From NCBI GenBank assembly GCA_026415715.1, contig JAOAGO010000002.1, positions 62,001 to 126,000 on the forward strand: a stretch of 64,000 nucleotides of DNA, in the 5' to 3' direction. The notes below the pieces were generated by a model that saw only the letters and a list, made by a program, of their open reading frames with translations, was not told the origin of the DNA and did not search any database. The position numbers and the translations under genes were made by a program. Shown here piece after piece: positions 13,806-32,262 of this stretch (position 1 is its first letter; each line of letters begins with the position of its first letter). This DNA is from Chitinophagaceae bacterium. GTDB lineage: Bacteria > Bacteroidota > Bacteroidia > Chitinophagales > Chitinophagaceae.

Positions 13806-15046
13806 ACACTTTCATTTTCGGGTGAAGTAATTTTTCCGTAAAGTGCCGATAAGGCTACTGTAGCCGGGCTGGCTAAAAATATTTTGGCGCGGGGATTTCC
13901 CATTCTTCCTTTGAAATTCCGGTTTGCCGTACTGATAACTATTTCATCATCGCCGGGCACGCCTTCATGAGTTCCTACACAAGGGCCGCAACCGCTGTTG
14001 ATAACCGTGGCGCCGGCTTCAATAAGTGTCTGAATTGTCCCATCGGCCAGGGCTTCAAGAAATACTTTTCGGCTGGCAGGCGCTACCACCAGTCTCACAC
14101 CTGTAGCAATATGTTTCCCCTTAAGGATTTTGGCGGCAGTTTGTAAATCATCTAAGCGGCTGTTAGTACAGGATCCGATAAAGGCATACGTAACCGGAGT
14201 TCCTTCAAACTTCCTTACATCGTAAACATTATCAGGTGAATCAGGAGCAGCTAATTGAGGTTTCAGCCCGCAGACATCCAATTCTATTGTTTGAACATAA
14301 TTTGCGTTTGAATCTGGAAATATGGGAGTATAATCATAAGGCAGTACCAAACCTTCCGGCGAAACAATTCCCGTTTTTGCACCCAGTTCGGCGCTCATGT
14401 TGCACAGTGCCATACGCTGAGACAGTGTTAAAGATGCCACGGCACTTCCATGATATTCTACGGCCATATAGGTAGCGCCCCCTGTAGTTAGTTTTTTGCA
14501 AAGCAAAAGCGCCAGGTCTTTTCCGCTGACGTAAGGTGAAAGTTTTCCATTGAGAATTACTTTTATGCTCTGCGGAACTTTTAACCATATTTTTCCGGTA
14601 AGCATAACCGCCGCCAGATCGGTAGAACCTACTCCACAGGCAAAAGTGTTCAGCGCGCCATACGTGGGGGTATGACTATCAGCGCCAATAAATAAATCGC
14701 CGGGTTTAACCTTTTGATGATCTACCATCACCTGATGACAAATTCCGCTTCCGATGTCAAAAAGATTGCACCCCTGTTCTTTTGCAAAATTTCTCATCAT
14801 CTGATGCAGGTTTGCTACTTTTTCATTAGGTGCGGGAGCGGCGTGGTCTATGATTAAATGAAATCTTGCCGGATCAAACACTTTCAATCCACCCATTTCA
14901 CGAAATGCTTTGATGGCCATGGGTGCCGTTGTATCGGTAGCCATACAACCATCCACTTTTACCACACAAAGCTCGCCGGCCCTGACTATTCTGTTGGTAT
15001 GACGGCTTATTATTTTTTCGGCTATGGTATATCCTGCTGAAGCCAT
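13802..15046 (-). CDS. aconitase-type dehydratase large subunit (LeuC-like, copy 1)
   Basis: 414-aa [4Fe-4S] dehydratase. The three cluster cysteines are seen in GSCTNSRLDD and SGCGPCVGTHEG, and the ADSHTPTYGALNTFACGVGSTD substrate/cluster region is well kept. The archaeal/short-type LeuC length suits partnership with a separate small subunit, encoded next with a 4-bp overlap. It reversibly adds or removes water on di- or tricarboxylates. Together with the CoA-transferase and lyase it resembles the chemistry used to break down citramalate or dimethylmalate. The exact substrate cannot be read from sequence. Confidence 0.88.
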   Translation of the reverse strand: MASAGYTIAEKIISRHTNRIVRAGELCVVKVDGCMATDTTAPMAIKAFREMGGLKVFDPARFHLIIDHAAPAPNEKVANLHQMMRNFAKEQGCNLFDIGSGICHQVMVDHQKVKPGDLFIGADSHTPTYGALNTFACGVGSTDLAAVMLTGKIWLKVPQSIKVILNGKLSPYVSGKDLALLLCKKLTTGGATYMAVEYHGSAVASLTLSQRMALCNMSAELGAKTGIVSPEGLVLPYDYTPIFPDSNANYVQTIELDVCGLKPQLAAPDSPDNVYDVRKFEGTPVTYAFIGSCTNSRLDDLQTAAKILKGKHIATGVRLVVAPASRKVFLEALADGTIQTLIEAGATVINSGCGPCVGTHEGVPGDDEIVISTANRNFKGRMGNPRAKIFLASPATVALSALYGKITSPENESV

Positions 15047-15056: not shown

Positions 15057-15977
15057 TTAAATCATCATCAAATCATTTTCTTTTTGCGACAATAATTTAT
15101 AAACTAATCCGGGTAACGGGCATGATAACATTTTTTCTACTTCCTTACTTACCTCAGCAACTTTACCAATATCAATTCCGGTTTGCATCCCCATCTGGTG
15201 CAACATGTGAACTGTGTCTTCTGTGGCAATATTTCCGGTAGCATTTTTTATAAACGGACATCCGCCAAGACCTCCGAAGGCGGTATCAAAACGACGTATT
15301 CCTGCTTCAAGAGCAGCAAAAACATTTGCGTAACCCTTGTTTTCCGTGTTGTGCAGATGAAGGCTTACCGGAATGTCTTTACATAAATCTATCGCTTTTC
15401 GGGAAAGTTGATACACCTGTCTTGGATTTCCCATTCCCGTGCTATCGGCTAACGCCAATTCATCTACTCCGTTTTGCAGGTGCGACTCAATTAATTCTAA
15501 AATTTTTACTTCTGAAATTTTACCTTCATAGCGACATCCGAAGGCGCATTGAATTCCGCCACGGACATAGATTCCCGAATCTTTTGCCATCCTCACCATT
15601 TCCCGAAATTCCGTCACCGCTTCTTCCAGACTTTTACGGGTGTTTTTGCGGCTATGTGTATCACTGGCGCTGAGGCTGACAGCCAGATATTTTATTCCGG
15701 CATTTCGGGCTCTCTCCACCCCCTTTGTATTTAATACCAAAGCGCTGAACTGTACCTCGGGATATTGCCCGAAATCTTCACACAATAATTCAGCATCAGC
15801 CATCTGGGGCACAAGCTCCGGATGAACAAAACTGACTGCCTGAATTTTTTTTATTCCGGCTTCAACCAGTTTATTGATCCAAACTTTTTTTTGTTCGGTC
15901 GGAATGATAAGACTGAGGCTTTGAAGCCCGTCCCGCAATCCTTGTTCTTCAATCCAAACCCAATGATCCGTATTCAT
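15057..15977 (-). CDS. HMG-CoA lyase-like enzyme
   Basis: 306-aa member of the DRE-TIM metallolyase family. The metal-binding aspartate is in GLRDGLQS, the divalent-metal histidines in SLHLHNT, and the catalytic cysteine loop reads GLGGCPFIKNATGNIATED, as in HMG-CoA lyase. The family splits beta-hydroxyacyl-CoA with a tertiary alcohol by retro-Claisen reaction. Candidate substrates besides HMG-CoA are citramalyl-CoA (to acetyl-CoA and pyruvate) or an alkylated homologue. First gene of unit A; its start lies 21 bp from the 29-bp inverted repeat, so it should be under direct control of the island regulator. Confidence 0.87.
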   Translation of the reverse strand: MNTDHWVWIEEQGLRDGLQSLSLIIPTEQKKVWINKLVEAGIKKIQAVSFVHPELVPQMADAELLCEDFGQYPEVQFSALVLNTKGVERARNAGIKYLAVSLSASDTHSRKNTRKSLEEAVTEFREMVRMAKDSGIYVRGGIQCAFGCRYEGKISEVKILELIESHLQNGVDELALADSTGMGNPRQVYQLSRKAIDLCKDIPVSLHLHNTENKGYANVFAALEAGIRRFDTAFGGLGGCPFIKNATGNIATEDTVHMLHQMGMQTGIDIGKVAEVSKEVEKMLSCPLPGLVYKLLSQKENDLMMI

Positions 15978-15997: not shown

Positions 15998-16026
15998 AAA
16001 AATAGTTAATATAGTTAACTAATTTT
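15998..16026. promoter_or_regulatory. island operator 1 (29-bp inverted repeat)
   Basis: Arms of 12 bp with one mismatch around a 5-nt spacer; the core is TAGTTAA-TATAG-TTAACTA. It lies between the divergent starts of unit A (15977) and unit B (16072). It is identical at 26 of 29 positions to the repeat at 29299-29327. It covers a candidate leftward -7 element (TATTTTTA on the minus strand, 15997-16004) and reaches the -33 position of the rightward promoter. Size and symmetry fit a MarR-family operator. Confidence 0.7.
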
Positions 16027-16054
16027 TTTATCTTATTTTTAACGCGTAATTTAG
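16024..16054 (+). promoter_or_regulatory. predicted promoter of unit B (hyuA)
   Basis: A TAATTTAG element at 16047-16054 matches the Bacteroidota -7 consensus at seven of eight positions. The -33 position 19 nt before it reads TTTT and overlaps the right arm of the operator. The start codon follows 17 nt after the -7 element. The geometry matches that at the TonB receptor promoter. Confidence 0.45.
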
Positions 16055-16071
16055 TCCCATACAGGTACTAT

Positions 16072-18171
16072 ATGAATCCGAAATTAATATTGGGAATTGA
16101 CGTTGGCGGTACGTTTACAGATCTGGCGTTATTGTTTGCCGAATCCGGCCGGCTTATTTTAGGTAAAACGCTCACCACTTATCCGGATCCTACGCCCGGT
16201 ATATTCAGCGGGATAAACGATTTACTGCAAAAGGCCGGTATTTCCATATCAGAACCTGAGGGTATTATTCACGGCACTACGTTGGTGACGAACGCCGTGA
16301 TTGAGCGGAAAGGGGAAAAAACCGGATTAATAACAACAAAAGGTTTTGAAGATATTCTGGAAATAGGCCGTGAAATCCGGTATGATATTTATGATCTCTT
16401 TATCAGCATGCCTCAACCCTTAGTGCCAACTTCAAAGCGCTTTGGCATTACCGAAAGAATCAATGCCAAAGGGGAGGTCATCACGGCTCCCGATTTAGAC
16501 GAAATCAGAAAAATTATTACTGAGCTGGAAACAGAAGGTGTTCGAAGTGTGGCGGTGGTTCTTCTCCACAGCTACCTGAATCCGTCTCATGAAAAGCAAA
16601 TCGGAAATTTTATCCGACGGAATTATCCACATCTCTATTGCTCACTCAGTTGTGAAATCATACCCGAAATCAGGGAATATGAACGTAGTTCAGCTACCGT
16701 GATGAATGCTTATGTACAACCGGTAGCCGATATGTATTTGAATAATCTTTCGGAAAACCTGAAAAGCTCAGGTTTTAAGGGTTTTTTTCAGGTCATGAAT
16801 TCATCCGGAAGGTTAATTACGGCTGAACAGGCATCAAAAAAACCGATTGACTTACTTGAGAGCGGCCCGGCAGGCGGATGTATGGCCGGAGTATATTTTT
16901 CCAAAAAATTAAGTATACCTGATCTCCTGGCTTTTGATATGGGAGGAACTACGGCAAAAGCCTCGTTAATCAGAGAATCCGAACCTCAGATTACGTATCA
17001 GTTTGAAGCGGCACGGGAAAAAAGATTCAAAAAAGGAAGCGGTTTGCCCGTTAGGATACCGGTGATTGATTTGATAGAAATCGGTGCGGGGGGCGGCAGT
17101 GTGGCCAGGGTTAATGAATTGGGACTGCTTACCGTGGGTCCCGACAGTGCATCCAGTCAACCGGGACCAGCTTGTTATGGTAATGGCGGAATATATCCTA
17201 CCGTAACGGATGCTGACCTGGTTCTCGGATATCTTAATGAAAGCTATTTTCTGGGCGGCAAAATGAAATTGTGCAAAGAAAAAGCCGCAGAAGCCATTGA
17301 AAGCTTTATAGCAAAACCTTTGGGTATTTCGGTTGAAAAGGCAGCATGGGGTATTCATCGGGTAGTAAATGAAAATATGGCAAATGCTGCCCGTGTACAC
17401 ATTATCGAAAAAGGATTGAATCCGAAACATTTTAAAATGATCGCTTTCGGAGGTGCAGGCCCAGTTCATGCGTACCATGTTGCCCGGCTTTTACATGCGC
17501 CTGGGCTGATCATTCCCGGTGCAGCCGGGGTGCTCAGTGCTTTTGGTTTTCTGGTCAGTCAGCCAGCCATAGAATTTACTTACAGTAAAGTGCAAAAAAT
17601 TGATTGTTTGGATTTTAATGATTTGAATGAAACTTTTGAAAAATTCAAAAAAGAGGGGATGGCTTATCTTCTGGGTGCCGGTGCGGATGAGAAATATCTC
17701 CATTTTAAAATATCGTGTGAGATGAGATATGCGGGACAAGGCCATGAAATTCATGTACCGATGCCATTACCTCCATATCATAACAAAACCGGCGATGATA
17801 TCAAAATGCTTTTTGAAAATCAATATCAGCAAAAATTCGGACGAATCATGCAGGGCCATAACATTGAAACGGTAACCTGGCGGGTATTAATCAGCGGAAA
17901 TCCTTTTTTTCAACAAACGGCAAGAGTAGTCGTTGAAGATGGTGGAGCAGTTTTGAAGGGATACCGGATGGCTTATTTTAAGGGACAATATATCAACACT
18001 CCTGTTTACAACCGCTATGCCTTGTCAGCAAATACAATATTAAAAGGTCCTTGCATTATAGAAGAACACGAGAGTACGGTGGTAGTTGGATGCGAAGGAG
18101 AAGTTTTTGTTGACGAAGCCAATATACTTCATATTCAATTTGTGAAAAATGATGAACCGGTTAATTCATAA
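16072..18171 (+). CDS. hyuA: HyuA-type hydantoinase/oxoprolinase subunit A
   Basis: 699 aa, ATP-dependent subunit of the hydantoinase/oxoprolinase/acetone carboxylase family. It starts GIDVGGTFTDLALL (actin-like ATPase motif), with GTTLVTNAVIERKG, the ESGPAGGCMAG and DMGGTTAKASLI motifs, and a C-terminal domain with VVVGCEGEV. Members phosphorylate an amide or carbonyl to open lactam, hydantoin or imide rings, or to carboxylate ketones. It needs subunit B, encoded two genes downstream. Which chemistry applies here is open; co-regulation with a hydantoinase-type amidohydrolase favours a ring amide. First gene of unit B. Confidence 0.88.
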   Translation: MNPKLILGIDVGGTFTDLALLFAESGRLILGKTLTTYPDPTPGIFSGINDLLQKAGISISEPEGIIHGTTLVTNAVIERKGEKTGLITTKGFEDILEIGREIRYDIYDLFISMPQPLVPTSKRFGITERINAKGEVITAPDLDEIRKIITELETEGVRSVAVVLLHSYLNPSHEKQIGNFIRRNYPHLYCSLSCEIIPEIREYERSSATVMNAYVQPVADMYLNNLSENLKSSGFKGFFQVMNSSGRLITAEQASKKPIDLLESGPAGGCMAGVYFSKKLSIPDLLAFDMGGTTAKASLIRESEPQITYQFEAAREKRFKKGSGLPVRIPVIDLIEIGAGGGSVARVNELGLLTVGPDSASSQPGPACYGNGGIYPTVTDADLVLGYLNESYFLGGKMKLCKEKAAEAIESFIAKPLGISVEKAAWGIHRVVNENMANAARVHIIEKGLNPKHFKMIAFGGAGPVHAYHVARLLHAPGLIIPGAAGVLSAFGFLVSQPAIEFTYSKVQKIDCLDFNDLNETFEKFKKEGMAYLLGAGADEKYLHFKISCEMRYAGQGHEIHVPMPLPPYHNKTGDDIKMLFENQYQQKFGRIMQGHNIETVTWRVLISGNPFFQQTARVVVEDGGAVLKGYRMAYFKGQYINTPVYNRYALSANTILKGPCIIEEHESTVVVGCEGEVFVDEANILHIQFVKNDEPVNS

Positions 18172-18946
18172 TATCATTCAATTTAAAAAAATTACAACGG
18201 TATGCATTTTTATTGTGCCGGTGTGTTATGGGTATGGTAAAGACTCTGACGCTGTTCGGATTGTTAAAAAAATAATTGAATCATTAGGCGGGCAGGTGTG
18301 GCTGCGTCCGGAATCTTTGATTTTAAAAGGTTATGCGTACTGGTCACCTCACGGAATAAAAGATCGGGACAGTGCTTTTTTGCTGAAACCGTATTATATG
18401 TACAGAATTTTTCCCGATACGAGCCATGCGGCTCATGGACCGAACGGAAAAATACGATTTGATGCCTACCGCAGTGAAGAGGTCTTTCTTCGTTTGATTT
18501 ATGACGGCAAACAAACGCAGCAGCATTTGCATGCCCTGGCCACAAAATATAAAGATTATTTCAGCTGGAGCAACAATTTCGGTTTTGGAATAATACGTTT
18601 TTGCCTTGATGAGGGATTTAACTTGAAACTGTTACAGGAAGATGATCTGGACGGTCACCATTGTTATGTGTTATATATCCGCGATCCATCGGGAATGAAG
18701 ACCTGGTTTTGGGTAGATAAAAAGAAATACTTCATTCGTGGTATGGGATTTAACACACCGCTCGGATGGCATTTGAGAATTTACAGCAACTACAAAAAAG
18801 ACAAAAAGAGCGGTTTTGTACAACCCAAAAGAGTTCGCATTTATTTTGAAGGAATAAAATGGATTGATATATACTGGAATGAATTTGATGTGAATCGCAA
18901 ACTCGACGATAACCTGTTTTTAATTGATGAAACTAGAAGCTCATGA
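18149..18946 (+). CDS. secreted LolA-like protein inserted between HyuA and HyuB
   Basis: 265 aa. A signal peptide is likely (KKITTVCIFIVPVCYGYGK). The mature part begins AVRIVKKIIESLGGQVW, as in many LolA/LolB-fold outer-membrane lipid-carrier relatives, and continues as an antiparallel beta-rich domain with LRIYSNYKK and RVRIYFEG strands. It overlaps hyuA by 23 bp at its start and hyuB by 4 bp at its end, so it is translationally coupled to both. A periplasmic protein between two cytosolic subunit genes is unusual. It may bind or shuttle the hydrophobic substrate. The fold assignment is from pattern only. Confidence 0.6.
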   Translation: MMNRLIHNIIQFKKITTVCIFIVPVCYGYGKDSDAVRIVKKIIESLGGQVWLRPESLILKGYAYWSPHGIKDRDSAFLLKPYYMYRIFPDTSHAAHGPNGKIRFDAYRSEEVFLRLIYDGKQTQQHLHALATKYKDYFSWSNNFGFGIIRFCLDEGFNLKLLQEDDLDGHHCYVLYIRDPSGMKTWFWVDKKKYFIRGMGFNTPLGWHLRIYSNYKKDKKSGFVQPKRVRIYFEGIKWIDIYWNEFDVNRKLDDNLFLIDETRSS

Positions 18947-20526
18947 AAAACAAATTTACCGATCCGATTGATTTATCCATTTTATGGAACCGGTTGATTT
19001 CACTGGTAGATGAAGCGGCCTCTACCTTGCAACAAACAGCCTTCAGCAGTGTAACCAGGGAAAGCGCGGATTTTGCCATTGTATTAATGGATTCAAAAGG
19101 GCAGAGCATGGTTCAGAGCAGCATCAGCGTGCCCAGTTTTCTCGGGGTATTGCCTTTTTTGGTGAAATCGTTGATTAAAAATTATTTTCCACAGGAAGTC
19201 TTAAAACCGGGTGATGTTTTGATAACTAACGACCCCTGGTTATGCGCCGGCCATAAACCGGATATCGGAATAGTTACTCCAATCTTTCATCCAAATCAAA
19301 CTCATATTATCGGATATATCGGATGTATAGCGCACAGTCCCGATATCGGGGGTACACTTTGGGGCGCCGGTGCCCGTGATTTTTACGAAGAAGGTTTATA
19401 TATTCCGCCGTTGAAGCTTATTGAGTCGGGTAAATTAAATGATACGGTCATCAAAATCATAGAAGGAAACGTCAGGGCGCCGTATCAGACACTTGGAGAT
19501 ATCATGGCGCAGGTAGCCGCTAATAATCAAGGAATACAAAGCCTTATGCAACTGGTGAATGAATACGGGTTGGAAGATTTAGACGGTCTGTCTGACCAGA
19601 TTATTCAGGCTACGGAAAATGCCATGAGACAGGCTATTCGGAATGCGCCTGATGGGGTATATAAAAGCAGATATGAAGCTGATGGTGATGCAGAAAACCA
19701 TCCCGTTACTATTGAATGTACGGTAACCATCAACGGCGATTCCATACATGTGGATTATACAGGCAGCAGTCCGCAACATCCTTTGGCAATAAATGCCGTT
19801 ATGAATTATGTATTTGCTTATACGGCATACCCTATAAAATGTATTTTTAATCCGGAAATTCCAAACAATGAAGGAGCCTTCCGTCCCGTAACCGTATATG
19901 CGCCGGAAGGATGTATTCTGAATGCCAAAAAACCGGCCCCGTTAGGCGCACGGAACGTTATCGGAAATTTGTTGCACGCTCCGGTGATGTTGGCCTTAAG
20001 CCAGGCGGTTCCTGAAAAAGTTCAGGCCGATTGCGGCGCCCCGGTTTGGGTTATGCCGTTGAGTGGCACAAAAGATGACGGAACGGAATTTGTTGAATAT
20101 CTTTTTCTGGCAGGGGGTTATGGAGGGCGCAACGGGCTGCCGGGTCCTCCGACATTATGTTTTCCAACCAATGTGGCCAACGTTCCGGTGGAAGTTTTTG
20201 AACATGATGCACCCGTGCTTGTTCTGGAAAAAAAACTGATACCCGGAAGCGGCGGATCCGGAAAATTTCCCGGAGGTGACGGACAACGATTTAGTTATAA
20301 AAACATAAGTAAGCGTCCTTTACAAATATCCAATGTAACGGAAAAAATAAAAACACAGGCTTATGGTTTATTCGGCGGCGAACACGGAAGAAAGGGTGAT
20401 ATATTCGTAATCACCAAAGACGGTAAAAGAAGATATACTCCGCCAAAAGGAATTGACTATTTGCAACCTGATGAAATATTGGTGATGGAACTTCCCGGCG
20501 GGGGAGGGTACGGTAAAGCCGAATAA
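18943..20526 (+). CDS. hyuB: HyuB-type hydantoinase/oxoprolinase subunit B
   Basis: 527 aa, partner of HyuA. Recognised by TRESADFAIVLMD near the N-terminus, LITNDPWLCAGHKPDIG, GYIGCIAHSPDIGG, the AGGYGGRNGLPG stretch and the glycine-rich PGSGGSGKFPGGDGQ typical of hydantoinase B. It ends with MELPGGGGYG, a standard family terminus. The start overlaps the upstream stop (ATGA). Together with HyuA it should form a cytosolic complex, with HyuB carrying out ring opening or carboxylation of the activated intermediate. Confidence 0.88.
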   Translation: MKNKFTDPIDLSILWNRLISLVDEAASTLQQTAFSSVTRESADFAIVLMDSKGQSMVQSSISVPSFLGVLPFLVKSLIKNYFPQEVLKPGDVLITNDPWLCAGHKPDIGIVTPIFHPNQTHIIGYIGCIAHSPDIGGTLWGAGARDFYEEGLYIPPLKLIESGKLNDTVIKIIEGNVRAPYQTLGDIMAQVAANNQGIQSLMQLVNEYGLEDLDGLSDQIIQATENAMRQAIRNAPDGVYKSRYEADGDAENHPVTIECTVTINGDSIHVDYTGSSPQHPLAINAVMNYVFAYTAYPIKCIFNPEIPNNEGAFRPVTVYAPEGCILNAKKPAPLGARNVIGNLLHAPVMLALSQAVPEKVQADCGAPVWVMPLSGTKDDGTEFVEYLFLAGGYGGRNGLPGPPTLCFPTNVANVPVEVFEHDAPVLVLEKKLIPGSGGSGKFPGGDGQRFSYKNISKRPLQISNVTEKIKTQAYGLFGGEHGRKGDIFVITKDGKRRYTPPKGIDYLQPDEILVMELPGGGGYGKAE

Positions 20527-20587
20527 AAGAATTTTGAGAATGGAAGAAGGCAAAATCAGATTTTTTAACTGAATAAAATGATATGTT

Positions 20588-21769
20588 ATGCAATATCAAC
20601 TTCCTCCGGTATGGACAAAATTATATCGCCATGCCGTATTTCCGGAATTCTCACATGATGAAAGGGCGAGATATAATTTTCTTGCCAACCTGAACCGTTT
20701 TATTAGTACGGTAATTGCTCCCGGCAATCAGATTGCCTTTCAAAACAGGGTAAAGCCGGCTTTCGAAAAAGAAAAGGGCAGAACCTTTGCAAACCGTCAT
20801 GAGGTAGCGGAAGCCATGTCAAAGGATCCGGTGTATCAGAGCTGGGCCGCTTTACGAAGATGTACCATGGAGATGCGACAGCAGAACGGACGGGCCGTTG
20901 TGATGCGGCAGGCAAAAGAGCTGGCCGATAAAGTGAAACAGTATGCGGGTGATAATCTGATTTTGAAAAAAAATTTCAAAGTGCCTGAATATTTGCGTCA
21001 TGTGGACAATCACCTGATGCCCGGAAGTTATCACACCAGTTATTTTGAAGGTGATGTTTCCAATGCAGCAAACTATGACAGCGGCTTGTTTGTAACAAGC
21101 GGCGGTATGTTGGGAAGTCTTACTGACGGCGGCGGTAAAGCCATAGCAAAATGGGTGAAGGAATATTATCCGGATTTCCGTCCTAAGAAAATTCTGGATA
21201 TTGGTTGCGGGCTTGGGCACAACACACTTCCACTGGCCGAAGCATTCCCGGATGCGGAAGTGATCGGAATTGATGCCGGTGAACCTATGCTTAGATACGG
21301 AGCGGCAAGAGCCAATGCGCTCGGGGTGAAAAACGTAAAATTCATTCAAATGGATGCCGAAGACATGAGTGAATTTGAAGATGAAACGTTTGATTGGGTA
21401 CAGACTACGATGTTTTTACATGAAACCGGCGGTAAAGCCATTCATAAAATCATGAAGGAAATCGGAAGAGTATTGAAAAAAGGAGGATTGTGCCTTCACA
21501 TTGAACAGCCTCAGTACACTCCCGATATGAGTTACTACGAACAATTTATGCGTGACTGGGACGCCTATTACAATGCCGAACCTTATTGGGGACATATGCA
21601 TGATTTGCAACCGGAAGATTTGATGGCCGAATGCGGCATTCCAAAAGAACGATTCATGCAAATTGGTGTAAAAGCGGTTAATGATCTGGATACCCAAAAG
21701 AAAGATGATAAAATAACAGAAGATTATGGCCGAACACCTATCTGGAATGTGTTTGGCGGTTGGAAATAG
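20588..21769 (+). CDS. SAM-dependent methyltransferase with long N-terminal domain
   Basis: 393 aa. The C-terminal half has a class I methyltransferase fold: ILDIGCGLGHNTLPLAE (motif I), EVIGIDAGEPML, VKFIQMDAEDMS and FDWVQTTMFLHE. The first 190 residues form an alpha-helical region I do not recognise, with many basic and Met/Gln residues; it could bind the acceptor. It is 61 nt downstream of hyuB and 29 nt upstream of an orphan gene. A methylation or demethylation-linked role in the pathway is possible, but methyltransferases are rare in pure degradation operons. Confidence 0.75.
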   Translation: MQYQLPPVWTKLYRHAVFPEFSHDERARYNFLANLNRFISTVIAPGNQIAFQNRVKPAFEKEKGRTFANRHEVAEAMSKDPVYQSWAALRRCTMEMRQQNGRAVVMRQAKELADKVKQYAGDNLILKKNFKVPEYLRHVDNHLMPGSYHTSYFEGDVSNAANYDSGLFVTSGGMLGSLTDGGGKAIAKWVKEYYPDFRPKKILDIGCGLGHNTLPLAEAFPDAEVIGIDAGEPMLRYGAARANALGVKNVKFIQMDAEDMSEFEDETFDWVQTTMFLHETGGKAIHKIMKEIGRVLKKGGLCLHIEQPQYTPDMSYYEQFMRDWDAYYNAEPYWGHMHDLQPEDLMAECGIPKERFMQIGVKAVNDLDTQKKDDKITEDYGRTPIWNVFGGWK

Positions 21770-21798
21770 AAATATTTTAAAAATAAAATAAAAAAATT

Positions 21799-22242
21799 AT
21801 GTCAGTCAATGCAAAAAACGAATTAAGCGGTTCCCATGCCGGAAGCAATCAGGCTCCGGTTTCAGAACAAAACGGCGCATTCGGTTTCGGCGCCGATATT
21901 CTGATGGCAGGAAATAAAAGCAAGGGAAAAAGGCCGTATTTTTTTAACAGCGAAGAAACCGAGAGGGTACTCAATATTGCCATGGCAGCCGCTGCCGAAG
22001 TTGCGGTCATCCGCGAACGGCTGGACACCATTGAGCGTCTTCTGGAAAGTAAAGGGCTTTTAAAGCAAAGCGAAATTGAAGCGTACGAGCCGGATGACAA
22101 AGCCGCGGAAGAAAGGCAGTTATGGCATGCCCGTTTTGCGGCCCGTCTTTTGCGTATCATTCAACAGGAAATAGAAGCTGTTGCCAAACCGGAAGAAAAC
22201 AAGCCCATGCAGCAAATTGCTGATGAAATTAATGAAATGTAA
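21799..22242 (+). CDS. orphan 147-aa protein of unit B
   Basis: Not recognised. The first 35 residues are low-complexity and rich in Ser, Asn, Gly and Gln (NELSGSHAGSNQAPVSEQNG), then comes KSKGKRPYFFNSEETERVLNIAMAAAAEVAVIRERLDTIERLL, a likely amphipathic helix or coiled coil, followed by an acidic helical end. No signal peptide or membrane segment. It is tightly packed between the methyltransferase and SnoaL-like genes (29 and 9 nt), so it is a real operon member, perhaps a small accessory subunit of the methyltransferase. Confidence 0.6.
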   Translation: MSVNAKNELSGSHAGSNQAPVSEQNGAFGFGADILMAGNKSKGKRPYFFNSEETERVLNIAMAAAAEVAVIRERLDTIERLLESKGLLKQSEIEAYEPDDKAAEERQLWHARFAARLLRIIQQEIEAVAKPEENKPMQQIADEINEM

Positions 22243-22251
22243 ATTTTCTGA

Positions 22252-22671
22252 ATGCATCCCATAGATTTTATAAATGAATTTTATCAGCATATCATTCAGC
22301 GCAACATAGAACAAATTTGTGCTCATTATGCTGAAGGAGAGAACACTTATGTTTTTGTAGAAGGGCCGCGTTTAAGCACACTAGGTTCCTCGCATATCTT
22401 AAAAGGATGGAATGATTTCTGTAACTCTGATATTCATTTAAGAGAAATTACATGGAAGGAGGGACCGTATTTTGAAATCAGTGATTCCATGGCCTGGGTG
22501 GCGGGTATTATACATCTGCAAATTCTGGTGAAAGAAAAATATTTTGAAAATACGTTCAGGGCCAGTTTCGTGCTGATTAAACAAAACGGTTCATGGAAAA
22601 TTAAACACGAACATGTCAGTGCGGCACATCCGGATCCTTACGGCATTGGCGACTGGTTGAAAAAAACATAA
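22252..22671 (+). CDS. SnoaL/NTF2-like protein
   Basis: 139 aa with the cone-shaped alpha+beta barrel pattern of SnoaL-like/DUF4440 proteins: N-terminal helix (PIDFINEFYQHIIQRNIEQICAHY), then strands ending in FVLIKQNGSWKIKHEHVS and the DPYGIGDWL tail. Such small domains act as isomerases, cyclases, hydratases or simply bind ligand. No catalytic residue can be assigned safely. Placed 9 nt after the orphan gene in unit B. Confidence 0.7.
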   Translation: MHPIDFINEFYQHIIQRNIEQICAHYAEGENTYVFVEGPRLSTLGSSHILKGWNDFCNSDIHLREITWKEGPYFEISDSMAWVAGIIHLQILVKEKYFENTFRASFVLIKQNGSWKIKHEHVSAAHPDPYGIGDWLKKT

Positions 22672-22701
22672 ACAACGTTGCATGAACAGTTTTTTTTCTT
22701 A

Positions 22702-23652
22702 ATGAAGGCCTGTTTGAAAGATATCGTTATCATCACAACGGATTTGGATTATTGGAAAAAGTTGTTTTGTCAGTATGGCGGCTGGGAAATCGTATCCGAA
22801 GGTTATGTTTCTTCGTCGCTCTCAAAAATCTATTTTTCAGAAACTCCCATTAAGGGCTCGGAATGTGTTTTACGGTTTCCTCATTCCGATGTGGGGCGCA
22901 TTCGCTTCATAAAATGGGAACTGCCCTGCCGGCAAGATTACAAAAGGCCGGCCGGAAAAATCTGGGATACCGGCGGAATAGCCGATTTTGATTTAAGAGT
23001 ACATGATATATATAAAACTTATTTTGATTTGCAGGAATGGGGCTGGCGACCTGCTTATCTTCCCAACCGTATGCCCGCTCCGCCTTTTGAGTTGGATGAA
23101 ATGCTGATGAGCGGTCCCGACGGCGTAATGATTGCTTTTATTCAACGTTATCAGCCTCCTCTTGAATTACCCGAAGGTTATCTTTTTCCTTCACAGGCTT
23201 ATTTAAGCGCCATGATCGTGAAAGATTATGTAACGGCATATGATTTTTTTATCAATCGGCTGCAGTTTGTTACCGTTACGGAATTAAATATTTCATTTCA
23301 GGATGATGTTCCGAATAATTTCGGAATACCGCGGAATTTCAGCCAGTGCATACAAGGACGTTTATGTATGTTTTCACCCGACGGAGGCAAGGAATCCATG
23401 ATGGAAATTATACACTGGCCTCAGCTTAGAGGTGAAGACTACTCGGCTAACACTCATCCTTCGCTTCGGGGGATTTTTTCTTATCGCATTGAATTAAAAA
23501 ATCTGACAGAGTACTTCACAAAAATTTCAGATAACAACGTGAAATGGCACGTTCCGGTTAAAAAAACAGAAATAGACGGAAGGTTTTGCCTTTATTGCAG
23601 TATTTTTTCGCCTGACGGAGCTTTACTTGAATTTTTTGAATTTGAGGAATAA
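22702..23652 (+). CDS. two-domain VOC (glyoxalase/dioxygenase fold) protein
   Basis: About 316 aa. Two vicinal-oxygen-chelate modules are visible: the first begins LKDIVIITTDLDYWKKLF and ends with MSGPDGVMIAFIQR, the second begins AYLSAMIVKDYVTAYDFFINRL and ends with FSPDGALLEFFEFEE. This doubled layout is shared by extradiol dioxygenases and glyoxalase-like enzymes, but the classic iron ligand pattern (two His and one Glu) is not clear here. The start was moved to the ATG before KACLKDIV, because an upstream TTG gives an unlikely leader. The role could be isomerisation or ring chemistry on the pathway substrate. Confidence 0.7.
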   Translation: MKACLKDIVIITTDLDYWKKLFCQYGGWEIVSEGYVSSSLSKIYFSETPIKGSECVLRFPHSDVGRIRFIKWELPCRQDYKRPAGKIWDTGGIADFDLRVHDIYKTYFDLQEWGWRPAYLPNRMPAPPFELDEMLMSGPDGVMIAFIQRYQPPLELPEGYLFPSQAYLSAMIVKDYVTAYDFFINRLQFVTVTELNISFQDDVPNNFGIPRNFSQCIQGRLCMFSPDGGKESMMEIIHWPQLRGEDYSANTHPSLRGIFSYRIELKNLTEYFTKISDNNVKWHVPVKKTEIDGRFCLYCSIFSPDGALLEFFEFEE

Positions 23653-23660
23653 AACGTATT

Positions 23661-24902
23661 ATGAAAGATTTTTTTGATTATTGTAAAAACAATAAGAAAA
23701 CTTTCACCGCCATTCTGGCATCTGCTTTAGGTTTTTTTGTGGATTTATATGATATCATCATATTCAGTGCAGAACGGGTTGATAGTTTTATAAGCCTGAA
23801 AATCCCTCAGTCTGCCTGGCCTTCCGAAACGGCACGCATTCTGAATGCGCAGATGGCCGGGATGTTACTGGGTGGTTTTCTCTGGGGTATTGTCGGAGAT
23901 AAATTCGGGCGTCGGAAAGTATTATTTGGCAGTATTGCCATGTACAGTTTTTTTACATTATTAAATGCATTCGTCAGTAACGAAAATCAATATATGTTTT
24001 GTCGTTTTCTGGCCGGAATCGGGTTGGCCGGTGAGCTGGGAGCAGGAATCACGCTGGTCAGCGAACAAATGGATAAAAAGTTTCGTGGACTAGCCGTGTC
24101 GCTGGTGGGTGGAGTAGGAATGCTCGGCGCGGTGACTGCCGGAATAGTGGCCAATTTTTTTTCATGGCAAATCAGTTATCTTATCGGCGCGGTTTTAGGC
24201 TTTTTGTTATTGTTTTTTCGCTTCAGTGTTCTGGAAAGTATTTTATTTCAGACATTGCCTGTTCCTTCTTCAAAAAGAGGTAATTTTATTATTATATTGA
24301 AAGATAAAAATTTACTGAAAAAATTTATTTGTGTTTTGCTTGTGGGTATGCCGGGATGGCTTAATACGGGTGTATTAATCACGTTTACCCCCGAAATTGC
24401 GGGCAGTATGGAAATGAACCCTGCACCGGTTGCCGCAACGGTAATTTCCATTAATTTTTTTGCATTCGCCTTCGGCGATCCGTTATGCGGTTTGCTGAGT
24501 CAATACCTTCAAAGTCGAAAAAAAGCTATATCGGCTTTCCTGCTTTTGCATGGATTGGGTCTTATCCTCTTTTTTACCTTAGCCCGAAAAAGTATTTATA
24601 TCTATTATTCCGTATTTGTTATATTGGGCATAAGCGTAGGCTACACAATTATGTTATTTATGCTGGCTGCAGAACAGTTTGGAACAAATATCAGGACTTT
24701 GGTAACCAGCGCCTCGTTGAATCTTACCCGTGCATGGGTAATTCCGCTTACCTTGATTTTTAACTGGCTTACCTTACAACTCAATCATCAATCACATTAT
24801 GCCGTTTTGATGATGTCGGCCGTTGCTCTCAGTCTGGCTTTATGGGCTTTATCCAGGCTGGACGAAACCTTTCATGTAGATATGAATTATTCAAATATTT
24901 AG
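23661..24902 (+). CDS. MFS transporter, organic/aromatic acid type
   Basis: 413-aa, about 12 membrane segments. The loop between helices 2 and 3 reads GIVGDKFGRRK, the standard MFS signature, and GIGLAGELGAGITLVSEQM after helix 4 is like the sugar-porter/aromatic-acid and metabolite:H+ symporter groups. It is the last gene of unit B. Together with the unit A carrier it makes two inner-membrane carriers in one regulon, perhaps for substrate uptake and product export. The substrate is unknown. Confidence 0.82.
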   Translation: MKDFFDYCKNNKKTFTAILASALGFFVDLYDIIIFSAERVDSFISLKIPQSAWPSETARILNAQMAGMLLGGFLWGIVGDKFGRRKVLFGSIAMYSFFTLLNAFVSNENQYMFCRFLAGIGLAGELGAGITLVSEQMDKKFRGLAVSLVGGVGMLGAVTAGIVANFFSWQISYLIGAVLGFLLLFFRFSVLESILFQTLPVPSSKRGNFIIILKDKNLLKKFICVLLVGMPGWLNTGVLITFTPEIAGSMEMNPAPVAATVISINFFAFAFGDPLCGLLSQYLQSRKKAISAFLLLHGLGLILFFTLARKSIYIYYSVFVILGISVGYTIMLFMLAAEQFGTNIRTLVTSASLNLTRAWVIPLTLIFNWLTLQLNHQSHYAVLMMSAVALSLALWALSRLDETFHVDMNYSNI

Positions 24903-24986
24903 ATTCTTTGATAACAGATAGAAATCTGAACACTTGAGGTAAAAAGAAATCGGATACCGAAATTTCAGAACAGCAAAAAAAAGAAG

Positions 24987-25823
24987 TTAATGATATTCTT
25001 CTCCGCCGCTAACGTTTAAAGCTTCTCCGTTAATATATGAGGCTTCGTCGCTGCAAAGAAAGGCCACCGCGTTTGCTATATCTTCCACCATTCCCGTACG
25101 GCGAAGCGGATTTCTGTCTTTGATTCCCTGAAGATAGGTTTGATAATCCAGACCGAATTTTTTACTGAAAAATTCATTTTGCCAGTGACCTAAACCAGTA
25201 GTAATATGATTGGGGCAAATGGCATTTACCCGAATTCCTTTTGGACCTAATTCTACTGCATTACTGCGGGTTAAACCTACAAGTCCGTGCTTGCTGGCTG
25301 TGTATGCCGCAGCATAAGGAAAACCGCTTTTGGCCGCCTGTGAAGCGATATTAATGATGCAACCGCTATTTTGAGCTATCATATAACGCGCCGCATGTTT
25401 GCTGCACAGAAAAGCACCTTTCAGATTCACATCCAAAACAGCATCCCAACTGCTTTCTTTAAATTCCGTAAATTCTTCCATAAGATAACCCACACCGGCA
25501 TTATTAACCAGAATATCAATTCTGCCGAATGTATCTACAGCTGCTTTTATCAATGCCTCACAATCGCTTTCCAGTCTCACATCAGCGGGTTGAGCAATTA
25601 CCCGGGCGCCTGATTTTATTAACTCTTCTGTCAGTTGATTCATTTCATCCGTAATGCCGATATGTTCTGAAGAAAATTCATTTCCTTTCGGAACGCCCAG
25701 GTCACTCAGCACGATGCAACATCCTTCAGCGGCTAATTTGCTGGCAATGGCAAAACCGATTCCCTTTTTTCGTCCGCTGCCGGTAATTACGGCTACTTTT
25801 CCTTGAAGTCCATAATTTGCCAT
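24987..25823 (-). CDS. short-chain dehydrogenase/reductase
   Basis: 278-aa classical SDR. The cofactor loop is TGSGRKKGIGFAIA, with DLG at the end of beta-2, NNAG at beta-4, the catalytic Ser in NIASQAAKSGF, and Tyr/Lys in AAAYTASKHG. The C-terminus shows CSDEASYINGEALNVSGG. It carries a longer insertion after beta-2 than most (FSSEHIGITDEMNQLTEEL). Last gene of unit C; probably oxidises or reduces an alcohol or ketone made by the aldolase or upstream enzymes. The acidic residue after beta-2 suggests NAD(H). Confidence 0.87.
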   Translation of the reverse strand: MANYGLQGKVAVITGSGRKKGIGFAIASKLAAEGCCIVLSDLGVPKGNEFSSEHIGITDEMNQLTEELIKSGARVIAQPADVRLESDCEALIKAAVDTFGRIDILVNNAGVGYLMEEFTEFKESSWDAVLDVNLKGAFLCSKHAARYMIAQNSGCIINIASQAAKSGFPYAAAYTASKHGLVGLTRSNAVELGPKGIRVNAICPNHITTGLGHWQNEFFSKKFGLDYQTYLQGIKDRNPLRRTGMVEDIANAVAFLCSDEASYINGEALNVSGGEEYH

Positions 25824-25841
25824 AGAATATTATTTTTTTTG

Positions 25842-26150
25842 TTAAATTTCTTCACAAACAATAAATGAAGGATTATCTGCAAATCCGTTAAATTCCTTAG
25901 CGCCCTGCTGAATGGTTTCGCTTTGAATTTCTTTGAAAAATAAATCCATGTCATTTACTTCTATAATTTCCGCATATTGATAAGGGGCCGGTGTGTCTGA
26001 ACCTAAAAGATTTTTCATTTTCACCACTTTAAACTGCTGTACGGACTGAAGTGCATTTACATTAGGGATATCTTTTTCTTTAGCCCATTTTTCATAAGCC
26101 TCGGCCGAAGCGTCCGGCTTCAGATTATATAAAACGAGAATGGTCGCCAT
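25842..26150 (-). CDS. RedY/HapK-like dimeric alpha-beta barrel protein
   Basis: 102 aa. The pattern ILVLYNLKPDASAEAYEKWAKEKDIPNVNAL, then PYQYAEIIEVNDM and a terminal FADNPSFIVCEEI, matches the RedY-like/HapK small proteins of the EthD-type ferredoxin-like fold, first noted in prodigiosin (tripyrrole) clusters. Their role is not settled; members may be monooxygenases or binding proteins. It sits between the aldolase and SDR genes (11 and 18 nt), so it is a member of unit C. Confidence 0.65.
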   Translation of the reverse strand: MATILVLYNLKPDASAEAYEKWAKEKDIPNVNALQSVQQFKVVKMKNLLGSDTPAPYQYAEIIEVNDMDLFFKEIQSETIQQGAKEFNGFADNPSFIVCEEI

Positions 26151-26161
26151 ACAAAAAATTT

Positions 26162-26914
26162 TTAGGGTTTAAAAGATTTTATTCCGGCCGTTAAAAGTCC
26201 GGATATGCTGTTTATCATAATTTGTACACCTTGTTCGGCAAGCGATTTCACCTGCTCAGCCGTGTAAGCTACCGTGCCTATAAATTTACCATGCCGGCGA
26301 ATAGTTTGAATGGAATGTGAAATAGCTTCTTTTACTTCCTGATGATTCGGCCCGTCGGTATAACCCATACTCAAAGCCAAATCTCTGGGACCGATAATAA
26401 ATCCGTCCACACCTTCCACTTTACACATCGATTCAAGTTGTGAGATGGCCTCAGGCGTTTCAATCATGGGAAAAATAAGTGTCTCCTGATTGCTGAATTC
26501 AATATATTCTGCTTGCGTCATCGGGCCAAGCATATATTCAGCCGAGCGAACGGGGCCAAGCCCTCTTTTTCCCAAGGGCGGGTATTTAATAAATTCCACC
26601 AACTGCTTGCAATCTTCTGCAGAATTTGTACCCGGCATCATAACGCCCATAATTCCGGCGTCAAAAAATTGTAAAATCATTTTTTCATCCAATGAAGGGA
26701 TGCGGGCTAAGGGTGTGATACCGGCAATTTCACAGGCTCGTACCATGTGCAATACATCACGGATGGTCAAGGCGCCGTGTTCTCCGTCCATTATGTAAAA
26801 ATCCAGTTGGCTGAATCCGGTATACTCACAAACAACGGGATCGGTGGTGGGAGAAATTACTCCATAGGCCACGCTGCCGTTTTTCAAAATATTTTTTAAT
26901 TGATTTTTCTTCAT
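26162..26914 (-). CDS. HpcH/HpaI-family aldolase
   Basis: About 250 aa. The family pattern is complete: DGEHGALTIRD, PLARIPSLDEKMILQFFDAG, GVMMPGTNSAED, RGLGPVRSAEY, FPMIETPEAISQLE and GVDGFIIGPRDLALSMG, giving the divalent metal site (Glu in MIETPEA and Asp in GPRDL). These class II aldolases cleave 4-hydroxy-2-oxoacids to pyruvate and an aldehyde. The start was set at the ATG before KKNQLKNILK, 7 nt after the upstream stop. It probably acts on the product of the second dehydratase pair. Confidence 0.88.
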   Translation of the reverse strand: MKKNQLKNILKNGSVAYGVISPTTDPVVCEYTGFSQLDFYIMDGEHGALTIRDVLHMVRACEIAGITPLARIPSLDEKMILQFFDAGIMGVMMPGTNSAEDCKQLVEFIKYPPLGKRGLGPVRSAEYMLGPMTQAEYIEFSNQETLIFPMIETPEAISQLESMCKVEGVDGFIIGPRDLALSMGYTDGPNHQEVKEAISHSIQTIRRHGKFIGTVAYTAEQVKSLAEQGVQIMINSISGLLTAGIKSFKP

Positions 26915-26921
26915 AAGCCTT

Positions 26922-27458
26922 TCATCTGAGATCTGCAATCGTTCCGTCTGCAATTTTTTTTCTGATAAATTGACTCAGTCCGCCTGCTTCGGCAATTTCT
27001 CTGACGAATGCCGGAATGGGTGCGCAGGAAAAACTGACAGACCGGGTATGATTAATCACTTTTCCTTCTTCCGGGAAGTATTCTAAAAGATCTCCGGTTT
27101 CACATCCATGAATCATATCGGGTGCCGTGACAAACGGAAGGCCGTAGTTGATGGCATTTCTGAATTGCAGCCTTGAGAAGTTGATGGCAAATACCGCTTT
27201 TATACCGGCGCCCATTAATCCGGTAATTACGTGCTCTATACTTTTCCCCCCTCCGGCAAAATTATGCCCCGCCACAATAAACGTATATCCTTTGCTTTTA
27301 AATCCGTTTTCCGTATTAAAATCGGGATGAACACCGGCCATTACCCATTTACTGTTTTCTTCGGGATCAATCGGACTGGTCCAGAATTTTTGAATGATGA
27401 TATCATAGGCCATTACATAATCTTTGCTGCACCAGCAAGTTCCGGTTATACTTTTCAT
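26922..27458 (-). CDS. aberrant aconitase-type small subunit (LeuD-like, copy 2)
   Basis: About 178 aa, clearly paired with the large subunit upstream (7-nt gap). The fold is recognisable from AVFAINFSRLQFRNAINYGLPF, which aligns with the other small subunit in this window. Two hallmark motifs have changed: the N-terminal DNIDTD is DYVMAYD, and the catalytic GSSRE loop is GKSIEH (residues 71-76) with one extra residue, so the catalytic arginine is replaced by Ile. Either chemistry differs or the arginine comes from elsewhere. The C-terminus also has a longer tail. Start set at the ATG before KSITGTCWC. Confidence 0.75.
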   Translation of the reverse strand: MKSITGTCWCSKDYVMAYDIIIQKFWTSPIDPEENSKWVMAGVHPDFNTENGFKSKGYTFIVAGHNFAGGGKSIEHVITGLMGAGIKAVFAINFSRLQFRNAINYGLPFVTAPDMIHGCETGDLLEYFPEEGKVINHTRSVSFSCAPIPAFVREIAEAGGLSQFIRKKIADGTIADLR

Positions 27459-27465
27459 ATCGGTA

Positions 27466-28728
27466 TTACAATTTTCTCGGATCGGTAATTTTTCCATAAA
27501 TGGCGCTGGCTGCAACCACTGCCGGGCTACTCAGATAAATTTGCGCATTACGGCTTCCCATTCTTCCTTTCATATTCCGGTTTCCGGAGCTGAGAATAAC
27601 GTCGCCGTCACCGGCTACTCCGGTATGTATTCCGGCGCAGGCAGCACAGCTAGGTGTATCAACAGCTACTCCCGCTTCAATCAATGTCTGAATATGGCCC
27701 TGTTTCAGCGCTTCTAAATAGACCTGTTGAGATGCCGGAACAACCCACATATTTACAGCAGGATGCACTTGTTTTCCTTTCAATATTTCTGCCGCAACGG
27801 CAAAATCTTCCACTCTTCCGTTTGTACAGGTTCCGATAAATGCCTTATTGATCGGTGTGCCTTCCACTTCTTCTATGGGCACCACATCATCTAATTTGTC
27901 CGGCCGGCTGACCATGGGTGAAAGATTGGATATGTCAATTTCATAAACGGCCTCATAAACGGCATCTTCATCGCTGGAAATCATTTCCCAGTTGTCTTTA
28001 GCAATACCTTTCAGGAATTCGGCCGTTTTTTGATCAGGGGCTATAATTCCGTTTTTAGCTCCCAGGTCAACCGTCATGTTACAAAGTGTCATCCGTCCGG
28101 CTATGTCCAGTTCTTCAATGGCAGGACCTTTAAACTCCAGCGTTTTATAAATTAAATGACCGTTCCATCGCATCATATTCATAATGTACAGGCTCAGATC
28201 TTTGGCCATTATGCGGGGCTGCCATTTTCCTGTAATGTAAAAGCAAATTTGTTCGGGAACTCTGAACCAGCATTTGCCCGTGGCCATGGCAACGGCGGCA
28301 TCCGTTACGCCAACCGCATTCCCCACAGCGCCTACGGCGCCATATGTATTGGCATGGCTGTCTGTACCGATACTGATTTTGCCCGGTAAAACATGTCCTT
28401 GTTCCACCATAATTTGATGAGCTATTCCCTGCCTTCCAAAATCATAGAAATAAGTGATGTTATGTTCTCTCACTAATTTTCTCCACTCGTTCAGCATAGT
28501 GGCAAAATGCTCATTGGGTGGCGGAACGAGATGATCACTTACACAAATGACACGGTTTTTGTCAAAGACTTCGCTGACGCCAAGGCTGCGAAATTGTTTA
28601 AAAGTGCCGGCGCCGAGATAATCCATGGTCATCACCGTGTACACATCAGCCCATATCAACTCGCCGGGTTTAACTCGACTACGGCCGCTCTGTGAGGCCA
28701 TGATTTTTTCGGTAAGGGTAAGTCCCAT
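27466..28728 (-). CDS. aconitase-type dehydratase large subunit (LeuC-like, copy 2)
   Basis: About 420 aa. Cluster cysteines are kept in GTCTNGRVEDF and PSCAACAGIHTG, and the GTDSHANTYGAVGAVGNAVGVTD region is intact, so it should carry a [4Fe-4S] cluster. The start was put at the ATG before GLTLTEKIMASQSG; the longer frame would overlap the upstream gene by 101 bp and adds 42 residues unlike the family. It is similar to but distinct from the unit A large subunit. Its partner lacks the usual catalytic arginine, so a different substrate or reaction is likely. Confidence 0.85.
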   Translation of the reverse strand: MGLTLTEKIMASQSGRSRVKPGELIWADVYTVMTMDYLGAGTFKQFRSLGVSEVFDKNRVICVSDHLVPPPNEHFATMLNEWRKLVREHNITYFYDFGRQGIAHQIMVEQGHVLPGKISIGTDSHANTYGAVGAVGNAVGVTDAAVAMATGKCWFRVPEQICFYITGKWQPRIMAKDLSLYIMNMMRWNGHLIYKTLEFKGPAIEELDIAGRMTLCNMTVDLGAKNGIIAPDQKTAEFLKGIAKDNWEMISSDEDAVYEAVYEIDISNLSPMVSRPDKLDDVVPIEEVEGTPINKAFIGTCTNGRVEDFAVAAEILKGKQVHPAVNMWVVPASQQVYLEALKQGHIQTLIEAGVAVDTPSCAACAGIHTGVAGDGDVILSSGNRNMKGRMGSRNAQIYLSSPAVVAASAIYGKITDPRKL

Positions 28729-28753
28729 AGCTGATTTATAATCAACGGTTAAA

Positions 28754-29260
28754 TTAATGATCACTCCGGCTGGGCCCCTTGGTTCTTTTGTATGGTAGTT
28801 CTTCCCAGAAAGTTTCCGGAATTTCATTTTCAAAAGCCACTCTTCTTTCTTCAATCATTGTATTACCTTGAAAAATATCCCCTTCACTCCATTTCCAGGT
28901 ACGAATCCGATGATGGCCTTCTCCAATCAGGTCTATCATTTCAAAGAGTTTGCTCCCGGGTCGGTTTTTATACGTCCATACCAGCACTACACTGTCACCC
29001 GTTTCCCAGGCTTTTCCCTGAATTCGTTCATTATCAAAGATAAGTTCGCCTTTTTCATTGAAGGTACAAACGCCAAAATCATGACATTCTTCATATCCGT
29101 CGGGCCAGAAATACTGATTTACCTGATGATATTTATTACCGTCAAACATACGAATAGTAAGGCGGCTTTTCCATTGGTCAATTTTATTCCCAGCGGCATC
29201 AATACGGGTGTAGGTTCCTTCCCAGATACCGGTATGTTTTGGAAACAGACGTAGTTCCAT
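28754..29260 (-). CDS. calycin-like protein resembling DUF3598
   Basis: About 168 aa, no signal peptide. It starts LFPKHTGIWEGTYTRIDAAG and continues with YHQVNQYFWPDGYEE, LIFDNERIQGKAWE and RIRTWKWSEGDIFQGNTMIEER, a sequence of short beta hairpins as in the DUF3598/lipocalin-like group. Calycin barrels bind hydrophobic ligands such as bilins and fatty acids. It is the first gene of unit C, 38 bp from the 29-bp inverted repeat. Start set at ATG (a GTG two codons upstream is possible). Function not known; ligand binding or chaperoning of the substrate is a guess. Confidence 0.6.
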   Translation of the reverse strand: MELRLFPKHTGIWEGTYTRIDAAGNKIDQWKSRLTIRMFDGNKYHQVNQYFWPDGYEECHDFGVCTFNEKGELIFDNERIQGKAWETGDSVVLVWTYKNRPGSKLFEMIDLIGEGHHRIRTWKWSEGDIFQGNTMIEERRVAFENEIPETFWEELPYKRTKGPSRSDH

Positions 29261-29298
29261 ATACACTTTTTTTAAATTAACGTATTTTTCGCTAAGTT

Positions 29299-29327
29299 AA
29301 AATTAGTTAATTAAGTTAACTAATTTT
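29299..29327. promoter_or_regulatory. island operator 2 (29-bp inverted repeat)
   Basis: Perfect 12-bp arms around a 5-nt spacer; the core is TTAGTTAA-TTAAG-TTAACTAA. It lies between the divergent starts of unit C (29260) and the TonB receptor (29394). It differs from the repeat at 15998-16026 at only three positions. It overlaps a candidate leftward -7 element (TAATTTTA, minus strand, 29298-29305) and ends 2 bp before the -33 element of the receptor promoter. Binding here should block transcription both ways. Confidence 0.72.
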
Positions 29328-32247: not shown

Positions 32248-32262
32248 CGAAATAATTTGCTT

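Follow-up and report, generated by a model that had tools for sequence, protein, structure and literature searches.

We examined a 64,000-nt window of contig JAOAGO010000002.1 from a Chitinophagaceae bacterium, a freshwater member of the Bacteroidota with a genome of 2,626,356 bases. Within this window, two copies of a 29-bp palindrome (boxes 1 and 2) each separate two divergent gene units, A from B and C from D, of one gene island (Table 1). Sequence comparisons indicate that these boxes are probably operators of a single regulon under the MarR-family protein encoded by the last gene of unit A. Box 1 (AAAAATAGTTAATATAGTTAACTAATTTT) and box 2 (AAAATTAGTTAATTAAGTTAACTAATTTT) agree at 26 of 29 positions, and their arms, set around a 5-nt spacer, are 92 and 100% complementary, respectively. 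The first-pass annotation of this DNA had described both repeats, with the core TAGTTAA-N5-TTAACTA, and had noticed no further copy in the window. Both observations hold: the exact core occurs there twice, with none beyond boxes 1 and 2, and matches with three mismatches are only as numerous as expected by chance. Three exact cores are present in the whole genome, where the reversed pattern, used as a control, has no copy. With first-order Markov statistics taken from the window (43% G+C), about 0.0002 exact cores are expected per window and about 0.01 per genome.

The whole genome was also scanned with a 29-position, sequence-only model trained exclusively on 33 boxes from other genomes. The three exact boxes rank 1 to 3 (E values of 1.9e-5, 6.8e-5, and 1.2e-4) and only one more site has an E value below 0.01. 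As the earlier proposal of a regulon implied, there is no swarm of unrelated copies: unrelated sites are few, and all three exact boxes are at genes of the pathway, two in the window and one elsewhere. A lower-scoring candidate (C22:56504, E value of 0.22), at the end of a tRNA-nucleotidyltransferase-like gene, has a broken arm and was rejected as a chance match.

The third exact core is on another contig (G000:C12:27385, equivalent to L021:9386), between two divergent gene sets. The leftward genes encode a CN-hydrolase, a DUF1838-like protein, an aldehyde dehydrogenase (ALDH), and a CpcT-like protein, and the rightward genes a flavin adenine dinucleotide (FAD)-dependent reductase, an ADH_N_2-type ene-reductase, a VOC protein, and a DUF1838 protein. 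For all but one of the eight, a congeneric genome (G025) has orthologs (49–62% identity), and these seven lie in one cluster with the orthologs of the window's island. Thus, the proposal of one regulon is strongly supported, whereas its suggested size of four units and about 20 genes was too small. The predicted regulon comprises three boxes on two contigs, six units, and 31 genes: 7, 8, 6, and 2 in units A to D (23 altogether), and four on either side of the third box.

We then compared the locus with those of relatives. In the congeneric genome G025, the cluster is rearranged and its promoters carry five exact boxes within 21 kb; the box model detects no sites there outside the cluster. Scanning genome contigs for the unit-B methyltransferase recovered 26 loci, mostly from Sediminibacterium, other Chitinophagaceae, and Saprospiraceae, with distant loci in Sphingomonadales and Stenotrophomonas. 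Most of the Bacteroidota loci have the box at promoters despite changed gene order and partners; no box was found at the Sphingomonadales and Stenotrophomonas loci. Intergenic DNA makes up only 8.5% of 28 cluster loci of Chitinophagaceae and Saprospiraceae, yet 24 of their 25 exact boxes fall within it, upstream of genes that almost always belong to the cluster; the remaining box overlaps a start predicted by a simple open reading frame (ORF) caller. When the half-site was permuted with the spacer kept (n = 140), the true half-site gave 25 matches in the cluster loci and the other 139 gave 2 in total. Nine matches in background loci were not used, as that set included loci chosen for having a box and was an unfair background. 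The same site is thus conserved upstream of orthologous units in rearranged genomes in which the regulator is present, as is to be expected of a true regulon.

These loci also yielded some separate observations. The Stenotrophomonas loci (L046-L050) hold a small related gene set (TonB receptor, DUF1838, methyltransferase, DUF3598, and CN-hydrolase) without a box. Saprospiraceae clusters additionally encode flavin amine-oxidase-like proteins with leaders resembling those of the twin-arginine translocation (Tat) system (L040:2289-3680, L079:9961-11298, L076:10752-12233, and L101:15232-16632), and such a protein is also encoded near the cluster of Stenotrophomonas terrae. Genome G029 has, at a contig end (L020:9862-10087; also L018:384-610), a 227-bp stretch of the island edge that is 98% identical to the DNA of G025 and contains the box and the first part of the HMG-CoA-lyase gene; the contig ends there and the sequence outside differs. 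Orthologs of MarR and of the methyltransferase were not found in G029, and the piece could reflect either an island border or a strain mixture.

To describe how box, cluster, and regulator are associated, we used 398 genomes of the order, with the methyltransferase ortholog as the marker of the cluster (11 genomes). Five genomes have more than one exact box, and the cluster is present in each of them (Fisher 6e-9). The MarR ortholog was detected in 14 genomes, i.e., in 11/11 with the cluster vs. 3/387 others (Fisher 4e-19), and within the genus MarR and the methyltransferase occur together in 2 of 42 genomes, both with several boxes. Eight genomes of the order have one box each but neither cluster nor MarR; the surroundings of all eight (L024, L025, L090-L095) were inspected and contain no cluster genes, and we treated these boxes as background.

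The MarR protein, by Pfam the only regulator of the island, scores above the curated cut-offs of both matching families (PF12802, 39.3 bits vs. 27; PF01047, 24.8 vs. 24.6). Its gene is often within the cluster in relatives, and the recognition helix VSRANVTNLLN is conserved among orthologs of 34–57% overall identity. The nearest solved structures are those of MepR, and the DNA-binding domain is MepR-like. Because of the complete co-occurrence, the co-localization, the conserved helix, and this domain, we consider it probable that the MarR protein is the reader of the boxes.

Known MarR-family systems offer partial parallels. Both MepR and the protein studied here have a winged helix-turn-helix, and the MepR recognition helix (RTGPTVSNLLRNL) resembles that of the MarR protein (VSRANVTNLLNLL), although the similarity is limited to the DNA-binding and following region. 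MepR recognizes GTTAG (PMC8044140), its sites overlap the -35 and -10 elements of mepA, and, like the system predicted here, it combines an operator that overlaps promoter elements with self-repression (PMC3617543). The PefR target (TAAAATAGTTCTCACGATAACTATTAAA) shares TAGTT/AACTA half-sites and A/T flanks with the box (PMC8044140), but its TAGTT-AACTA gap is 8 nt, compared to 9 here, where the half-sites are AGTTAA around 5 nt. Regulators of the MepR and PefR kind control efflux genes, as opposed to the catabolic genes here. The zinc repressors AdcR and ZitR, also of the MarR family, have the operator TTAAC-YR-GTTAA. AdcR is among the profile matches and the half-sites are alike; however, the spacing differs, AdcR is a weaker match than MepR (1.6e-7 vs. 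1.8e-14), and no zinc genes were recognized among the genes of the regulon. A survey of the literature on MarR TTAACT operators, confined to open-access papers, returned no matching operator, which is a weak absence.

The position of the boxes bears on how they might act. Sigma-A promoters of Bacteroidota have a -33 element in addition to the -7 box. The latter has the sequence TAnnTTTG (PMC9723704), and leftward -7-like elements matching 5/6 of its defined bases, with the final G missing, are found at 16004-15997 (TATTTTTA) and 29305-29298 (TAATTTTA), inside the boxes and ending 1 bp beyond them. The first-pass annotation had reported these elements correctly, yet its contrast between a leftward -7 and a rightward -33 overlap is not compelled, because the right arm has a symmetric copy (TAATTTTT, at 16020-16027 and 29321-29328); the outer arms match 5/6 defined -7 bases in both directions. 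Across the cluster loci, the distance from the core box edge to the nearest start codon has a median of 20 nt and is mostly 11 to 30 nt; the HMG-CoA-lyase-like gene of unit A starts 20 nt from the 29-bp box 1. At most units, this is too short for a promoter to fit between the box and the gene. Thus, the box must overlap the core promoter, which makes repression by occlusion the best reading, and we think it likely that control by MarR through such occlusion explains the data best. Moreover, the A/T tracts outside the half-sites are conserved, which fits the PefR-DNA complex, in which the MarR wings insert into flanking A/T-rich minor grooves (PMC8044140).

We propose that the two AGTTAA half-sites are most likely bound by a MarR dimer, with its wings in the outer A/T tracts, and that the bound protein would bar RNA polymerase from the core promoter, for transcription either way where units diverge. 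MarR would also repress its own synthesis, since its gene is the last of unit A, behind box 1. A substrate or intermediate of the TonB-dependent catabolic pathway, once in the cell, should bind MarR and free the DNA, so that the six units at the three sites would be switched on together. What the sequences show is the boxes, where they lie, how they are conserved, and that they occur together with the MarR gene; the binder, the sign of control, and the inducer are each inferred.

Other explanations were considered. The boxes could be true operators of one regulon that are read by a DNA-binding protein encoded elsewhere, with MarR having a different target, which would agree with the three genomes in which a MarR ortholog occurs but the marker methyltransferase does not. 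We regard it as unlikely: all 11 cluster genomes encode MarR, often inside the cluster, its own unit carries box 1, and an A/T-flanked palindrome is a fitting target for a MarR dimer (cf. the PefR-DNA complex; PMC8044140). A different possibility concerns the sign of control: MarR, or another factor bound at the box, might activate rather than repress. Some MarR proteins are activators, and the rightward starts are 45 nt (box 1) and 66 nt (box 2) from the 29-bp boxes, so the box could lie upstream of the -33 element. At most units, however, only 11 to 30 nt separate the core box from the start codon, so that it must overlap the core promoter, and one symmetric box serves both directions; activation therefore seems quite improbable. 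Lastly, short palindromes are common in A/T-rich promoters, and the likeness of the boxes might stem from chance or from recent duplication of one promoter region. This is scarcely credible, given that, in two families, promoters unrelated to each other have the same box but different flanks: chance or A/T-richness as the origin is ruled out by the window and genome counts, the reversed control, and the Markov estimate, and the comparison with relatives refutes chance or duplication.

Several observations nevertheless weigh against control of the boxes by MarR as proposed above. The genomes of the association test share ancestry, and its p-values are therefore optimistic. Six of the 11 cluster genomes of the order lack an exact core: G145 and G222 have versions with two mismatches and G238 one with four (AAATTAACTCAGTTAATCA, at the DUF3598/TonB gap), while no box was found in G416 and neither the exact pattern nor the model scan returned anything in G246 and G301. 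In relatives, unassigned ORFs were only partly screened for alternative regulators, and box position supports the sign of repression only indirectly. Finally, the site ranking next after the three exact boxes (C37:17241, one mismatch, E value of 6.3e-4) scores almost as well as they do. Two box-like palindromes lie there 100 bp apart (G000:C37:17138-17266, equivalent to L023:8139-8266), the second copy being weak, and they precede a sulfate-assimilation operon encoding a MetX-resembling alpha/beta hydrolase, a homoserine dehydrogenase, two PAPS-reductase-domain proteins, a CysN-like GTPase, a tetrapyrrole methylase, and a sulfite reductase. We left this site uncounted because one of its two copies scores poorly and because it is not conserved in G025, where every site found by the model belongs to the cluster.

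Three of the genomes just mentioned (G238, G246, and G301) represent one Saprospiraceae genus, which has K for N in the MarR recognition helix (L103:10356-10829, L111:2713-3201; VTKLLN rather than VTNLLN in G246 and G301) and a degenerate box in the DUF3598/TonB gap (L101:8140-8275). It is possible that helix and operator changed together in this genus.

Table 1. Boxes and genes of the island, in window coordinates.
Feature	Coordinates	Strand	Evidence
MarR-family regulator, last gene of unit A; candidate repressor of boxes and own promoter	8846..9397	-	PF12802 7.4e-10; conserved start probably ~9346
MFS transporter 1 (unit A)	9336..10586	-	PF07690
Cyclic amidohydrolase, hydantoinase/allantoinase type (unit A)	10616..12082	-	PF01979; allantoinase/hydantoinase-like, under equivalog cut-offs
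Class III CoA-transferase (unit A)	12095..13294	-	PF02515
LeuD-like hydratase small subunit 1 (unit A)	13308..13805	-	PF00694
LeuC-like hydratase large subunit 1 (unit A)	13802..15046	-	PF00330; exceeds subfamily cut-off, homoaconitate hydratase family
HMG-CoA-lyase-like enzyme, first in unit A	15057..15977	-	PF00682; exceeds subfamily cut-off NF004283
Box 1, palindrome separating units A and B	15998..16026		Relatives' box model, 24.9 bits, E 6.8e-5
HyuA-like ATP-dependent lactamase/hydantoinase subunit, first in unit B	16072..18171	+	PF01968/PF05378; nearest caprolactamase alpha, N-methylhydantoinase
Unknown-family protein, leader-like N-terminus (unit B)	18149..18946	+	No Pfam match; homologs in same place in G025, L026, L028, L030
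HyuB-like subunit (unit B)	18943..20526	+	PF02538 2.4e-146
S-adenosylmethionine (SAM) methyltransferase with additional N-terminal domain (unit B)	20588..21769	+	PF13649; cluster marker
147-aa unknown-family protein (unit B)	21799..22242	+	No Pfam/NCBIfam match; orthologs in most clusters
SnoaL-like protein (unit B)	22252..22671	+	PF13474
Glyoxalase/VOC-fold protein (unit B)	22678..23652	+	PF00903
MFS transporter 2 (unit B)	23661..24902	+	PF07690
SDR oxidoreductase, last in unit C	24987..25823	-	PF13561
HapK/REDY-like protein (unit C)	25842..26150	-	PF11639 1.5e-8
HpcH/HpaI-type aldolase (unit C)	26162..26953	-	PF03328
LeuD-like hydratase small subunit 2 (unit C)	26922..27515	-	PF00694
LeuC-like hydratase large subunit 2 (unit C)	27466..28854	-	PF00330
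DUF3598 calycin-type beta-barrel protein, first in unit C	28754..29266	-	PF12204
Box 2, palindrome separating units C and D	29299..29327		Genome's top match, 26.5 bits, E 1.9e-5
TonB-dependent outer-membrane receptor, first in unit D	29394..32141	+	PF00593/PF07715
CpeT/CpcT-family protein, leader-like N-terminus (unit D)	32230..33237	+	PF06206 2.5e-31; phycocyanobilin lyase CpcT 4o4o at 3.9e-5

Adjoining the island, at 3750-7616, are three genes for a molybdopterin/FAD/[2Fe-2S] oxidoreductase of the xanthine-dehydrogenase type, the small subunit of which has a Tat-like leader; no counterpart was found in the other clusters compared.

The enzymes of the regulon include the cyclic amidohydrolase, HyuAB, the CN-hydrolase, the class III CoA-transferase, the HMG-CoA-lyase-like enzyme, two LeuCD-like pairs, the aldolase, the SDR, the ALDH, and reductases. 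This suggests a catabolic toolkit for opening a lactam or cyclic imide and then cleaving a branched di-acid. As in caprolactamase, N-methylhydantoinase, and 5-oxoprolinase, both HyuA and HyuB subunits are present; HyuA matches N-methylhydantoinase (4e-120) and the caprolactamase alpha subunit, but its 511 bits fall below the 1000-bit cut-off of the caprolactamase equivalog model (NF050156). To our knowledge, the pathway matches no known pathway that could be named.

Some of the accompanying proteins, namely the CpeT/CpcT-like proteins, the DUF3598 barrel, the HapK-like protein, and the TonB receptor, suggest a large pyrrolic substrate, although each of these links is weak. The unit-D protein belongs to the CpeT family (PF06206, 109.4 bits vs. 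a cut-off of 21), and matches CpcT (4o4o) in sequence at 3.9e-5. The structure model of the DUF3598 protein (predicted local distance difference test score, pLDDT, of 94.9) is closest to the folds of BFA1, DUF3598, nitrobindin, and CpeS; it has the calycin-type barrel also found in CpeS, but the barrel alone shows no bilin ligand. The DUF1838 model (pLDDT of 92.3) has no convincing relative among solved structures (best Z of 8.9, with tied rows). In contrast to the setting of phycobilin lyases, the host lineage is non-phototrophic; we saw no phycobiliprotein gene in any locus read, and we know of no tested role for CpeT-like proteins outside phototrophs.

Tentatively, and with the odds against it, the regulon might allow a linear tetrapyrrole to serve as a nutrient under aerobic conditions, be it a bilin or the pyrrolic compounds left when chlorophyll or haem is broken down. 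The TonB receptor would take up the compound and the CpeT, DUF3598, and DUF1838 barrels would shuttle it. HyuAB, the amidohydrolase, and the CN-hydrolase could open the lactam and cyclic imide to give alkylated maleates, which the two LeuCD-like enzymes would hydrate before CoA activation and cleavage by the lyase and aldolase, with MarR sensing a pyrrolic ligand. No haem oxygenase was found among the cluster genes examined, which is neutral for this scheme. The open-access literature on bilin, maleimide, or hydantoinase catabolism, on CpeT with MarR, and on DUF1838 contained no matching pathway, again a weak absence.

Catabolic regulons under MarR proteins are already known, whereas the operator and gene set described here are new and the pathway is probably new. 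Two look-alike sequences have thereby become a defined, predicted regulon of the Chitinophagales, for which a precise operator, a candidate regulator, and about 30 genes under shared control can be named. Since some of its members have no family or only a DUF assignment (for instance, the 147-aa protein and DUF1838), the operator provides a handle for finding the substrate of the pathway. If that substrate were indeed a tetrapyrrole, the regulon would point to a bacterial recycling route for one of the most abundant kinds of pigment.

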